Assembly: GCA_027078745.1 (NCBI GenBank)
Contig: JALWWO010000006.1
Location: 1 to 64,000 of the forward strand
Source of the DNA: Chromatiaceae bacterium
Lineage (GTDB): Bacteria; Pseudomonadota; Gammaproteobacteria; Chromatiales; Chromatiaceae
Direction of reading: 5' to 3'
DNA: 64,000 nt
Shown here: positions 59,640 through 64,000 of the stretch, piece by piece
Numbering within the stretch: position 1 is the stretch's first letter
Layout of the letters: every line of letters begins with the position of its first letter
Notes under the pieces: generated by a model
Database searches by the model: none
What the model saw: the letters and a program-made list of their open reading frames with translations, nothing else
What the model was told of the DNA's origin: nothing
Position numbers and translations under genes: made by a program

Positions 59640-60575
59640 TCATTCGCATTCATCGAGCAATGCCTTGGGCAATCCGAAGACCACGGATTCCCGAATGCCA
59701 GATTGTTCTTCCACCCGATCGCAGCCCCATTCCCGAAGCCGTCGGATCACCTGAGCGACCAGCACTTCGGGCGCGGAAGCCCCAGCGGTCACCCCGACGC
59801 GCTGCCGATCCCGCAGCCAATTCCGCGCGATGTCCTCCGGACCGTCGATGAGATGGGCTTGGGTACCGCATTTTTCCGCGATCTCCCGCAGCCGATTGGA
59901 ATTGGAGCTGTTGGGCGAACCCACTACCAACACCAGATCGCAGCGCTTTGCCAGCTCCCGCACTGCGTTTTGACGGTTCTGAGTGGCATAGCAAATATCG
60001 CTCTTCCTCGGCCCCTGAATCTTGGGAAAGCGAGCTTGCAGGGCCTGAACGATGCTTTGGGTATCGTCCATGGAAAGGGTGGTCTGAGTCACATAGGCGA
60101 GGCGATCCGGGTTTTGAATGCGCAAGTCCTCGATATCCTGCACCTCCTGCACGAGATGGATGCGCCCCCCGCTGCACTGTCCCATGGTGCCCTGGACTTC
60201 CGGATGACCGCGATGACCGATGAGGATCACTTCCACCCCGTTCTTGCAGTGGCGGGCTACCTCGGCATGGACCTTGGTCACCAAGGGGCAGGTGGCATCG
60301 AACACCCGCAGCTTCCGGCGCTGGGCCTCTTGGCGCACGGTCTGAGAAACCCCGTGGGCGCTGAAGATGACCGTAGCCCCTGGGGGCACCTCCGCCAGTT
60401 CATCCACGAAGATTGCCCCCCGATCGCGCAGGCTTTCCACCACAAAGCGGTTGTGCACCACCTCATGGCGCACATAGATGGGACTGCCGAAGCGGGCGAG
60501 CACTTGTTCCACGATGGCGATGGCACGATCTACACCGGCGCAGAATCCCCGAGGATTGGCGAGCAAAATATCCAT
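59640..60575 (-). CDS. ispH: 4-hydroxy-3-methylbut-2-enyl diphosphate reductase
   Basis: 311 residues. The three cluster cysteines are in [25 protein letters not shown] and [11 protein letters not shown]. It yields IPP and DMAPP at the end of the MEP pathway. The ATG at 60575 gives the standard [14 protein letters not shown]; an ATG nine codons upstream (60602) is possible. It appears to be the first gene of ispH-thiO-unknown. Confidence 0.97.
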
Positions 60576-60602
60576 GGATCGAAAACTTGTGGAAATGCTC
60601 AT

Positions 60603-60951: not shown

Positions 60952-61089
60952 TCAAAGCAACTCTTGGGTGATGAAGAGATAGGCCATGGCCACCGCCACC
61001 ACGGCCACCGCTACATAGGGAATCAGGATGCAGACCCCGGGCAGGTCGTTACAGAGACGGCTATAGCGGCAGAGTTTGCAGTTTTTCAT
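60952..61089 (-). CDS. 45-residue membrane microprotein with four cysteines
   Basis: ATG at 61089 with AGGAG five bases upstream. The N-terminal half has Cys4, Cys7, Cys13 and Cys20 (MKNCKLCRYSRLCNDLPGVC). The second half (IPYVAVAVVAVAMAYLFI) is one transmembrane helix. The spacing CxxC-x5-C-x6-C would suit a metal or Fe-S site, or disulfides. It lies 153 bases downstream of ppdK on the same strand. I do not recognise the family. The good ribosome site and the non-random layout argue that it is real. Confidence 0.6.
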   Translation of the reverse strand: MKNCKLCRYSRLCNDLPGVCILIPYVAVAVVAVAMAYLFITQELL

Positions 61090-61172
61090 AGGTACTCCTG
61101 TCTTTTACAACTACTTCCTGGCGCTGGAAGCCGTCTTCATTCTTTCACATTCTCTCTCCCTGAGGTAGCATG

Positions 61173-61242: not shown

Positions 61243-64000
61243 TCAGTCGCGCAGGGCAGCTTGGGCAGCGGCGAGGCGGGCGACCGGCACCCGAGGTGCG
61301 GAACAGCTCACGTAATCCAATCCTGCCCGATGGCAGAAAGCGATGGAGCCTGGATGGCCGCCATGCTCTCCACAGATGCCTACATGGATTTCCGGCTTCA
61401 CCTGACGGCCCCATTCCACCGCAAGTTGCATGAGTTTGCCCACGCCCTTCACATCCAGGACTTCAAAAGGATTGTCCTGGAGAATGCCGGATTTGTTGTA
61501 GAGAGGCAGGAATTTGTTTTCCGCATCCTCTCGAGAGAAGGAGAAGACCGCCTGGGTCAGATCGTTGGTACCGAAGGAGAAAAACTCCGCTTCCTCTGCC
61601 AAGGACTCTGCCCGCATACAGGCCCGCACCACTTCAATCATGGTGCCGAACTTGAAGTTCACCGGATGGCCGTAGCGCTGTTGGATTTCCTCGTGGATGG
61701 TGTTCACGAAGGATTTCACCTTGCGCAGTTCCTGCACGGTGCACACTTGGGGAACCTTGATCTGAGGATGCACTTCGATCCCCATCTTCGCGCACTCCGC
61801 CGCCGCTTCCAGGATCGCCCGAATCTGCATCTGATAGATCTCGGGGAAGGTGATGCCCAGGCGCACGCCTCGATGTCCCAGCATAGGATTGGTTTCATAG
61901 AGGGCGCGCACTTTCCGCAACATGGTTTCCTTCTTGGCGATGGCTTCCTCTACTAGGTTGAGGTCGACCATATGCCGCATGTTTTCTAGATCCCGCCGCG
62001 CATGGTCGGAAGCGTGGATCAAGCCCATGGAACCCGCTAGCACCATCATGCCCCGGCTCGTGGTGGCGAGCTGGTGCAGAGCAGCTAGATCCTGTTCCAA
62101 CTGATGTTCATCCGGCAGAAATTCATGGATGGGGGGATCCAGCAAGCGGATGGTCACGGGACGGGGCGACATGACTTCGAAGAGTTCCCGGAAATCCTTC
62201 CGCTGCAGAGGCAAGAGTTGATCCAGGGCGGCTTGTCGCTGTTCTGGTGTGTCTGCCACGATCATCTCGATGACGATGGGCAACCGGTCCACCTCGTTGA
62301 ACATGCGCTCCGTGCGGGCCAGACCGATGCCGACCGCGCCATATTTCAGGGCTCTGCGGGCGTCTGTGGGGGTGTCCGCATTGGCCAAAACCTTGAGTTT
62401 AGCGAAGCGATCCGCCCAACTCAGCAGGATATTCAGTTCATTGGTGAAATCCGGCTCCACCTGGGGAATCTCTCCGAGATAGACTTTACCGGTGGTGCCG
62501 TCGATGGTGATCACATCTCCTTCCCGGAAGCTGGTCTCCCCCACATAGGCTTCCCGCCGGCTCACATCCACGCTGATGCCTTCCGCACCCGCCACGCAGG
62601 GCTTGCCCATGCCTCGGGCTACCACCGCAGCATGGGAGGTCTTGCCCCCCCGAGAGGTGAGGATGCCTTGGGAGGCGAAGAAGCCGTGAATGTCTTCGGG
62701 CTTGGTTTCCTCCCGCACCAGGATCACCTTGCGCCCCAGATCCCGACCCAGCTGCTCCGCCCGATCTGCGTCGAAGACGGCGATGCCTGAGGCTGCCCCG
62801 GGGGAAGCGGGTAGCCCCTGGGCCACGGGTTCTGCCCGATGGCTGGGATCCAGACGGGGAAAGAGCATCTGTTCCAAAAGCTCCGGCTGGATGCGCAGCA
62901 AGGCCCGCTCCTTGGTGATCAGACCTTCCCCCACCATCTCCACGGAGGTGCGCACCATGGCTTGGGCGTTCATCTTGGCGTTCCGGGTCTGGAGGCAATA
63001 CAGGGTGCCCCGCTCGATGGTGAATTCGAAATCCTGCACTTCCTTGTAATGGGCTTCCAGCTTGTTGCGCAGCACCTCCAATTCTTCCGCAATCTTGGGC
63101 ATCTCATTCTTGAGATGGTCGATGGGCTTCGGGGTGCGGATGCCCGCCACCACATCTTCCCCCTGGGCGTTGACCAGGTATTCCCCGAATAACTTGTTCT
63201 CTCCGGTGGCGGGGTTGCGGGTGAAGGCCACGCCGGTAGCGGAATCCTCGCCCCGATTGCCGAAGACCATGGTGACCACATTGACCGCCGTGCCATTGGC
63301 CATGTCCGGCGTGATGTGGAACTGTTTCCGATAATCCACCGCCCGCTTGCCCATCCAGGAGTTGAACACTGCCTTCACAGCGATTTCCAACTGTTCGTAG
63401 GGATCTTCTGGAAAGGGCTTGCCTGTGTATTCTTCCACCACCTGCAGAAAGCGCTCGCTGATCTCCTGCAGATCCTTAGCCGAAAGCCCCACGTCTTCCT
63501 TCACATGGGCCTTTTCCTTCACCGCTTCGAACTGGGCATCGAATCGTTCATCGGGAACGCCCAGGGCCACTTTGCCGAAGAGCTGGATGAACCGGCGGTA
63601 GGCATCATAGCCAAAGCGGGCGTCGCCGGTCTGCTGGATCTCCCCCCGCAGGGTTTCTCTGTTGAGCCCCAGGTTCAAAATGGTATCCATCATGCCTGGC
63701 ATGGATAGGGCGGAACCGGAGCGCACGGAGACCAACAGGGGATTATCCGGATCCCCGAACCCCTTGCCGGTCTTTTCTTCCAGCGCGCGCATCTGGGCGC
63801 GGACCTCTTCCATCAATCCTTCGGGCAGCTGGCGTTCTGGGGAATTCAGATATTCCAAACAAGCTTCTGTGGAGATCACAAAGCCCGGTGGGACGTTCAG
63901 ACCGATCTGGGTCATCTCGCACAGATTCGCCCCTTTTCCACCGAGCAATTTCTTGTTCTTGCCATCCCCTTCTTCAAAGGAAAAGACGTATTGCTTTTTC
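61243..64000 (-). CDS. ppdK: pyruvate, phosphate dikinase (5' end just outside window)
   Basis: About 918 residues visible; the frame runs to the window edge with KKQYVFSFEEGDGKN before LLGGKGANLCEM, so only a few N-terminal residues are missing. The swivelling His domain reads GGKTSHAAVVARGMGKP (catalytic His); the PEP/pyruvate barrel ends FCHRAGLDYVSCSAPRVPVA with the catalytic Cys. It interconverts pyruvate plus ATP plus Pi with PEP, AMP and PPi, useful for gluconeogenesis or PPi-linked glycolysis. No ppdK regulator (PSRP/DUF299) is visible. Confidence 0.96.
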   Translation of the reverse strand, partial: KKQYVFSFEEGDGKNKKLLGGKGANLCEMTQIGLNVPPGFVISTEACLEYLNSPERQLPEGLMEEVRAQMRALEEKTGKGFGDPDNPLLVSVRSGSALSMPGMMDTILNLGLNRETLRGEIQQTGDARFGYDAYRRFIQLFGKVALGVPDERFDAQFEAVKEKAHVKEDVGLSAKDLQEISERFLQVVEEYTGKPFPEDPYEQLEIAVKAVFNSWMGKRAVDYRKQFHITPDMANGTAVNVVTMVFGNRGEDSATGVAFTRNPATGENKLFGEYLVNAQGEDVVAGIRTPKPIDHLKNEMPKIAEELEVLRNKLEAHYKEVQDFEFTIERGTLYCLQTRNAKMNAQAMVRTSVEMVGEGLITKERALLRIQPELLEQMLFPRLDPSHRAEPVAQGLPASPGAASGIAVFDADRAEQLGRDLGRKVILVREETKPEDIHGFFASQGILTSRGGKTSHAAVVARGMGKPCVAGAEGISVDVSRREAYVGETSFREGDVITIDGTTGKVYLGEIPQVEPDFTNELNILLSWADRFAKLKVLANADTPTDARRALKYGAVGIGLARTERMFNEVDRLPIVIEMIVADTPEQRQAALDQLLPLQRKDFRELFEVMSPRPVTIRLLDPPIHEFLPDEHQLEQDLAALHQLATTSRGMMVLAGSMGLIHASDHARRDLENMRHMVDLNLVEEAIAKKETMLRKVRALYETNPMLGHRGVRLGITFPEIYQMQIRAILEAAAECAKMGIEVHPQIKVPQVCTVQELRKVKSFVNTIHEEIQQRYGHPVNFKFGTMIEVVRACMRAESLAEEAEFFSFGTNDLTQAVFSFSREDAENKFLPLYNKSGILQDNPFEVLDVKGVGKLMQLAVEWGRQVKPEIHVGICGEHGGHPGSIAFCHRAGLDYVSCSAPRVPVARLAAAQAALRD

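Follow-up and report, generated by a model that had tools for sequence, protein, structure and literature searches.

The soluble regulator FNR has cysteines in a CX2CX5C-type spacing plus a fourth cysteine, and the cluster site of the Cas4/AddB proteins shows the CX2CX5C spacing as well. CydX and CcoQ are small single-span accessory subunits, and neither is known to have such a cysteine site. E. coli RseC is a membrane-bound protein with two helices and three conserved cytoplasmic cysteines in a CX2CX5C motif, and its isolated N-terminal domain was reconstituted in vitro with an oxygen-sensitive [4Fe-4S] cluster (PMC11729352). The Wbl proteins, soluble regulators with a CxnCx2Cx5C arrangement, bind a [4Fe-4S] cluster (PMC7363131). 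The Cas4/AddB iron-sulfur site is formed by four cysteines, three of them near each other, and zinc has been found in the same cysteine arrangement in one related nuclease, which the authors caution is possibly artefactual (PMC3466216).

A 45-residue ORF, read on the minus strand from 61089 to 60952 (MKNCKLCRYSRLCNDLPGVCILIPYVAVAVVAVAMAYLFITQELL) of the window (the whole stretch of 64,000 nucleotides analyzed here), can be compared with each of these systems. Like RseC/MucC (PF04246; SoxR-reducing Rsx/Rnf system), the microprotein appears to be a membrane protein with a CX2CX5C motif, cytoplasmic in RseC and predicted to be so here; however, the seven RseC proteins aligned in this work are about 160 amino acids long. 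Wbl/WhiB and FNR likewise combine three CX2CX5C cysteines with a fourth, but theirs lies elsewhere, whereas in the microprotein it comes 7 residues after the third, near the membrane, and there is no family match between them. The Cas4/AddB site is similar, but the microprotein is without a nuclease domain and its function is unrelated. In size and topology it resembles CydX and CcoQ, yet no operon shared with an oxidase was seen at the microprotein loci. Our preferred reading, to which we give a probability of about 0.42, is that of an inner-membrane microprotein with one span and N-in topology, which binds a metal through its CX2CX5C-X6-C motif, most likely as an oxygen-labile [4Fe-4S] cluster, and signals to a membrane partner. 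We infer both the metal and the partner, and the cluster is suggested by the precedent of RseC and Wbl. The features of the locus are:

60952-61089, minus strand: microprotein coding sequence, ATG at 61089, TGA at 60952-60954 (translation, conserved frame, family relatives)
61095-61099, minus strand: Shine-Dalgarno AGGAG, 5 nt before the ATG (sequence)
61030-61080, minus strand: cysteine motif C4-x2-C7-x5-C13-x6-C20, codons Cys4 to Cys20, predicted cytoplasmic
60973-61029, minus strand: predicted transmembrane helix, approximately residues 21-39 (hydropathy, AlphaFold2, charge asymmetry)
60955-60981, minus strand: conserved C-terminal tail YLFITQELL, which may contact a partner
61243-63999, minus strand: ppdK (pyruvate phosphate dikinase), upstream neighbor reaching the window edge (TIGR01828, 1279 bits, cut-off 843)
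59640-60602, minus strand: ispH (lytB), downstream neighbor (TIGR00216, 345 bits, cut-off 188)

The ORF coordinates, the length of 45 residues, the cysteines at positions 4, 7, 13, and 20, the single helix, and the ribosome site before the ATG, all given in an earlier note on this DNA, were confirmed in the sequence; the ribosome site is AGGAG at 5-nt spacing. The best 19-residue Kyte-Doolittle mean of the window protein is 2.53, in its one hydrophobic helix. The same note had held that such a layout is not expected by chance in a GC-rich spacer. Of the 300 window ORFs of 35-70 amino acids, 7 have at least 4 cysteines in the N-terminal half, and among these the microprotein ORF alone reaches the helix threshold (1/300 combining both), the decisive evidence being conservation. 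The gene lies 153 nt from the ppdK stop codon and about 350 nt from ispH, all three on the minus strand. A consensus scan located a weak terminator-like site 3' of ppdK and no sigma-70-like promoter on the minus strand between 60600 and 61400. No Rfam model matched in the window at gathering score. Neither rimO nor slpA, which recur at related loci (see below), has a match in the window itself, and a search of the spacer for an slpA remnant gave a best E-value of 0.1.

A reading frame under purifying selection

The reading frame is under purifying selection and represents a genuine conserved gene. Mean ungapped DNA identity, from pairwise comparison of up to 21 genomes, is 0.66 within the ORF and falls to 0.26 in either flank, and differences at first, second, and third codon positions stand at 0.29, 0.17, and 0.57, in that order. 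Computed without regard to phylogeny from 852 usable pairs of 1540 (688 undefined) among 56 rows that include a few identical copies, the in-frame median dN/dS is 0.134; the two remaining forward frames give 1.26 and 2.33. The drop in identity at the ORF flanks and the in-frame dN/dS are decisive for the reality of the gene. The earlier note had named an unconserved frame, or a ratio near one, as the finding that would speak against it; the frame proved conserved, with the ratio far from one. Stop codons interrupt the +1 frame of all 67 copies and the +2 frame of 52/67. Shine-Dalgarno-like 4-mers precede 48 of the 67 family starts, as against 401 of 3241 control windows, and the start codons, chosen in the relatives to fit the alignment, are ATG in 44 copies, GTG in 11, and TTG in 12. 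That the ORF is spurious, or marks a conserved RNA element, is suggested by its shortness and its position in a spacer; this is hardly credible, as it is contradicted by the frame test and counts against it are also the codon-position differences, the frame controls, and the lack of an Rfam match.

Distribution and genomic neighborhood

A search with the single sequence found relatives at E < 1e-8 in 27 of 92 genomes, that of the window included. By profile, 84 of the 146 genomes from the family of the window genome (itself again included) gave a match, one being reported for each; the weakest was G006 (E 0.0039), and the copy in G046 is cut by a contig end. A scan of genome contigs yielded 66 loci in named records, mostly Chromatiaceae and Sedimenticola, including Allochromatium, Thiocystis, Thiocapsa, Thiohalocapsa, Marichromatium, Lamprocystis, Halochromatium, Chromatium, Candidatus Thiobius, and others. 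These were collected as set A3 with the pattern [GAS]YL[FL][VI]TQE[LMF], so that relatives without that tail are missed; they encode 63 distinct proteins which, with the window protein, make the 64 distinct sequences used below. Marichromatium gracile DSM 203 and Thiocapsa roseopersicina DSM 217 are among the carriers. Eleven of the 66 records are titled only Gammaproteobacteria bacterium and one Rhodobacteraceae. The latter (L121, Rhodobacteraceae bacterium S139_41) has the rimO / microprotein / slpA / ispH neighborhood of the gammaproteobacterial group, and this MAG may be mislabelled or contaminated.

A wider search of 274 genomes of the class, at E up to 0.01, gave 16 matches, of which 3 are from the same family and 13 from outside it. 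Six of these 13 (G295, E 1e-13; G305, 6e-7; G263, 8e-7; G140, 1e-6; G239, 3.5e-4; G099, 1e-3) have, by eye, all four cysteines in unchanged spacing with a hydrophobic stretch after them, and do not keep the C-terminal tail; the G305 copy lies approximately 1 kb from a rimO match. The seven other class matches (L030, L131, and L134-L138) are short, broken, or unconvincing; judged from their translations to be chance, they were left out. Among 398 genomes of the phylum there were 3 matches at E up to 0.005, of which the window's own was alone convincing; of the two others, one spans 24 columns and contains two stops, and one is part of a 515-residue frame. No match was found among 72,556 plasmid records. 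A type I toxin-like hydrophobic peptide would share the length and single helix of the microprotein, but such a role is very improbable, considering the one match per genome, the recurring chromosomal address, a dN/dS of 0.13 over many genera, and the plasmid records without a match; a possible antisense RNA was covered by the Rfam scan only.

The neighbors of the gene were named from one representative each, with genes called by a simple longest-ORF scheme, and contig ends limit all of the following counts. Upstream, rimO lies on the opposite strand (divergent) in 52 of the 66 named loci; downstream, an slpA-like FKBP gene is present in 46 and ispH, on the same strand, in 39. Of the 66 loci, 21 have pduO and 10 have a TonB receptor. 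The representatives of rimO (TIGR01125) and pduO (TIGR00636) score over their cut-offs. That of slpA reaches 75 bits with NF011676, below the cut-off of 125, and the gene is therefore read as an FKBP-type isomerase; the TonB receptor is presumed to be one from its sequence. Three Allochromatium loci have a phosphoketolase as the next large downstream gene (L068 by family; L065 and L071 by likeness), and three Halochromatium-type loci (L084-L086) have none of the usual neighbors. The link to ppdK noted earlier stands for the window genome, where the two genes are adjacent, but not in general: a position downstream of ppdK in related genomes, as had been proposed for a search, is not borne out, no ppdK match occurring in the stretches around the 66 named loci. 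Reading an operon function from the neighbors was also rejected; rimO, pduO, the slpA-like gene, and ispH recur and none is constant. Because the neighbors recur yet vary, the gene has a habitual address without a fixed partner gene.

A cobalamin riboswitch was detected in 4 of 8 loci scanned (L055, 6204-6427; L110, 10610-10843; L117, 8362-8502; L124, 8214-8420). In those loci a TonB receptor-like gene with its own cobalamin riboswitch lies between the microprotein gene and pduO. Receptor and riboswitch together likely serve B12 uptake, and the arrangement looks like the insertion of a B12 island into this locus.

The window genome (2.18 Mb, 97% complete) has no photosynthetic reaction-centre match at E 1e-10, unlike many carriers, and may be that of a small-genome, non-phototrophic member of the Chromatiaceae. 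Reaction-centre genes are present in 38 of 84 carriers vs. 18 of 62 non-carriers (Fisher p 0.058, uncorrected for relatedness); phototrophy as an explanation is not supported by this value, nor by the window genome. The lack of reaction-centre genes also led us to drop the idea that the window genome belongs to Thiodictyon intracellulare, a ciliate endosymbiont.

Cysteines, helix, and tail

The N-terminal side of the protein carries a net charge of +1 to +3 and the C-terminal side of -1 to 0, N being more positive than C in 64/64 sequences. By the positive-inside rule, the more positive side of a membrane protein faces the cytoplasm, and a single-span N-in topology in the inner membrane, with the N-terminus and cysteines on the cytoplasmic side, is thus predicted from the sequences. 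According to AlphaFold2 (mean pLDDT 83, pTM 0.48), the protein has helices at residues 5-15 and 17-44. In this prediction, the short helix bears Cys7 and Cys13, the break between the helices falls at residue 16, beside Pro17, and Cys20 lies at the start of the long helix, near the membrane surface. The one spanning helix is followed by approximately 6 residues.

Two other classes of membrane-associated protein were set aside. Type IV prepilins have a glycine cleavage site and a glutamate at +5; with G18 as -1, position 23 of the microprotein is L, I, M, or V in 64/64 sequences and never E, which argues against a type IV or Flp prepilin. A lipoprotein was set aside by inspection, there being no hydrophobic stretch before Cys20.

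The full CxxC-x5-C-x6-C pattern, which the earlier note had proposed to search for in related genomes, is complete in 53 of the 64 distinct sequences and incomplete in 11. Four cysteines are present in 53, three in 5, and two in 6 (the L122 type); these counts are unbiased by the search, because the tail pattern used to fetch the loci ignores cysteines. Cys4 is the one absent in the 11 (present in 53/64), and Cys7 is absent too in 6 of them (present in 58/64). C13, P17, and C20 occur in 64/64 and are the sole invariant N-terminal residues besides Met1; in two further relatives, G794 and the marginal G006, Cys13 also appears, by eye, to be absent. An account of cysteine loss by oxygen lifestyle was dropped, because G736 and G798 pair reaction-centre genes with the three-cysteine form.

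This pattern bears on a metal-free thiol switch, in which Cys13 and Cys20, with Pro17, would be the working pair at the membrane surface, joined in a disulfide or taking part in a mixed one, and Cys4 and Cys7 would be lineage-specific additions. The invariance of C13, P17, and C20 and the 6/64 sequences that keep just those two cysteines agree with such a switch. We nevertheless regard it as rather unlikely: Cys4 and Cys7 occur together in 53/64 sequences and, at the same spacing, in the six outside-family matches, two weak relatives are apparently without Cys13, and cytoplasmic thiols are usually reduced.

At the other end of the protein, Y37, L38, T41, Q42, and E43 are at least 90% conserved in a similarity-based set (A1, 28 rows); the invariance of the tail in A3 is partly by construction, because that set was fetched with the tail pattern. 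The helix end and the tail are kept where Cys4 or Cys7 has been lost. This retention, together with the five conserved residues in A1, would fit a structural role as an accessory subunit in a membrane complex, like that of CydX and CcoQ, with the helix and tail as the functional parts and the cysteines secondary. Such a subunit seems quite unlikely, as no constant neighbor encodes a membrane complex and the six outside-family matches keep the cysteines and not the tail.

Family relationships and a possible metal site

The window protein has no match in Pfam, NCBIfam, or PADLOC, and one PHROGs match at E 0.32. When all 64 members were compared with Pfam (E up to 1), 7 families were matched: the best E-value was 0.016 (zf-POGZ, 4 members), the most frequent match was Vac7 (13 members, best E 0.086), and MitoNEET_N was matched by 4 members (best E 0.034), like zf-POGZ at chance level. 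Foldseek returned 0 matches against the PDB at E up to 10, and a sequence profile search of the PDB one match at E 0.5. No report on this microprotein or its peptides was found in the open-licence literature searched. As far as these searches reach, the small protein family is undescribed in the sources covered.

The CX2CX5C spacing of RseC (C4, C7, C13) is present in 53 of 64 members. Membership in RseC/MucC was nonetheless rejected by family model (PF04246 matched by 0/64 members; Pfam, E up to 1), by profile (hhalign of A3 with 7 RseC proteins gave a probability of 0.3 on a percent scale, over 1 aligned column), and by topology, the microprotein having one helix and not two plus a cytoplasmic C-terminal domain. 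A separate RseC is encoded in 139 of 146 family genomes, including that of the window, and co-occurrence with RseC is uninformative because nearly all of them have it.

In the preferred reading, the four thiolates (CX2CX5C plus Cys20) would coordinate a single metal centre, for which an oxygen-labile [4Fe-4S] cluster is the most likely candidate; as the fourth cysteine is predicted near the membrane surface, one chain could supply all four ligands. The spanning helix and the YLF-TQE tail would dock on a larger membrane protein, and the state of the cluster, set by O2, NO, or iron supply, might alter this partner, as RseC serves Rsx/Rnf. Four conserved ligand cysteines, as expected for a [4Fe-4S] site, are found in 53/64 members, and a one-chain four-cysteine cluster is not universal because two- and three-cysteine forms exist. 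In the minority lineage without Cys4, and sometimes Cys7, another ligand or a second chain may complete the site, or a thiol pair may be all that is left of it. Counting against this reading are the loss of Cys4 and Cys7 without clean tracking of lifestyle (G736, G798), the variable neighborhood with no constant partner gene, the lack of a family or structure match, the zinc reported with caution for the same cysteine arrangement in one Cas4/AddB-related nuclease, and the lack of a minus-strand promoter-like site. The earlier suggestion of a metal- or redox-sensing microprotein thus stands as to a real protein, for which the observation has been strengthened, while the sensing role is plausible by analogy with the CX2CX5C spacing of RseC and Wbl, within the limit set by the lineage without Cys4 or Cys7.

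Zinc in place of iron-sulfur would make the N-terminus a small structural zinc knuckle that stabilizes it or docks a partner. Four cysteines within 17 residues would suit such a knuckle, four members have a chance-level Pfam zinc-finger match (best E 0.016), and one nuclease with cysteines of the Cas4/AddB type has been reported to contain zinc there (PMC3466216). We consider zinc unlikely, CX2CX5C being the reported [4Fe-4S] spacing of RseC and Wbl, a weak point given that spacing alone does not choose the metal. To return to the [4Fe-4S] reading, a more specific form of it, which we hold to be doubtful, is a free-standing 45-residue membrane-tethered [4Fe-4S] protein, consisting of little more than a cofactor site and an anchor, that in purple sulfur bacteria would act as a cytoplasm-facing O2/NO/iron sensor plugged into a larger membrane enzyme; the sister lineage, having lost one or two ligands, may build the cluster across a dimer.

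Genome annotation has a gap in small proteins, to which the microprotein contributes a conserved family, and both Chromatiaceae and Sedimenticola have cultured members. If a cluster were held, this would be an unusually small membrane-anchored iron-sulfur protein and a natural minimal model of such a site. With its two-, three-, and four-cysteine forms, the family provides a built-in mutational series, which makes the metal hypothesis directly testable.

Other families of the class have, at L129/L130 and L132/L133, four-cysteine microproteins of a second type, with the pattern C-x2-C-x5-C-x3-GG-x-C-PW. The L132/L133 type adjoins what we take, from their sequences, to be an rne-like gene and one resembling low-molecular-weight phosphatase genes.
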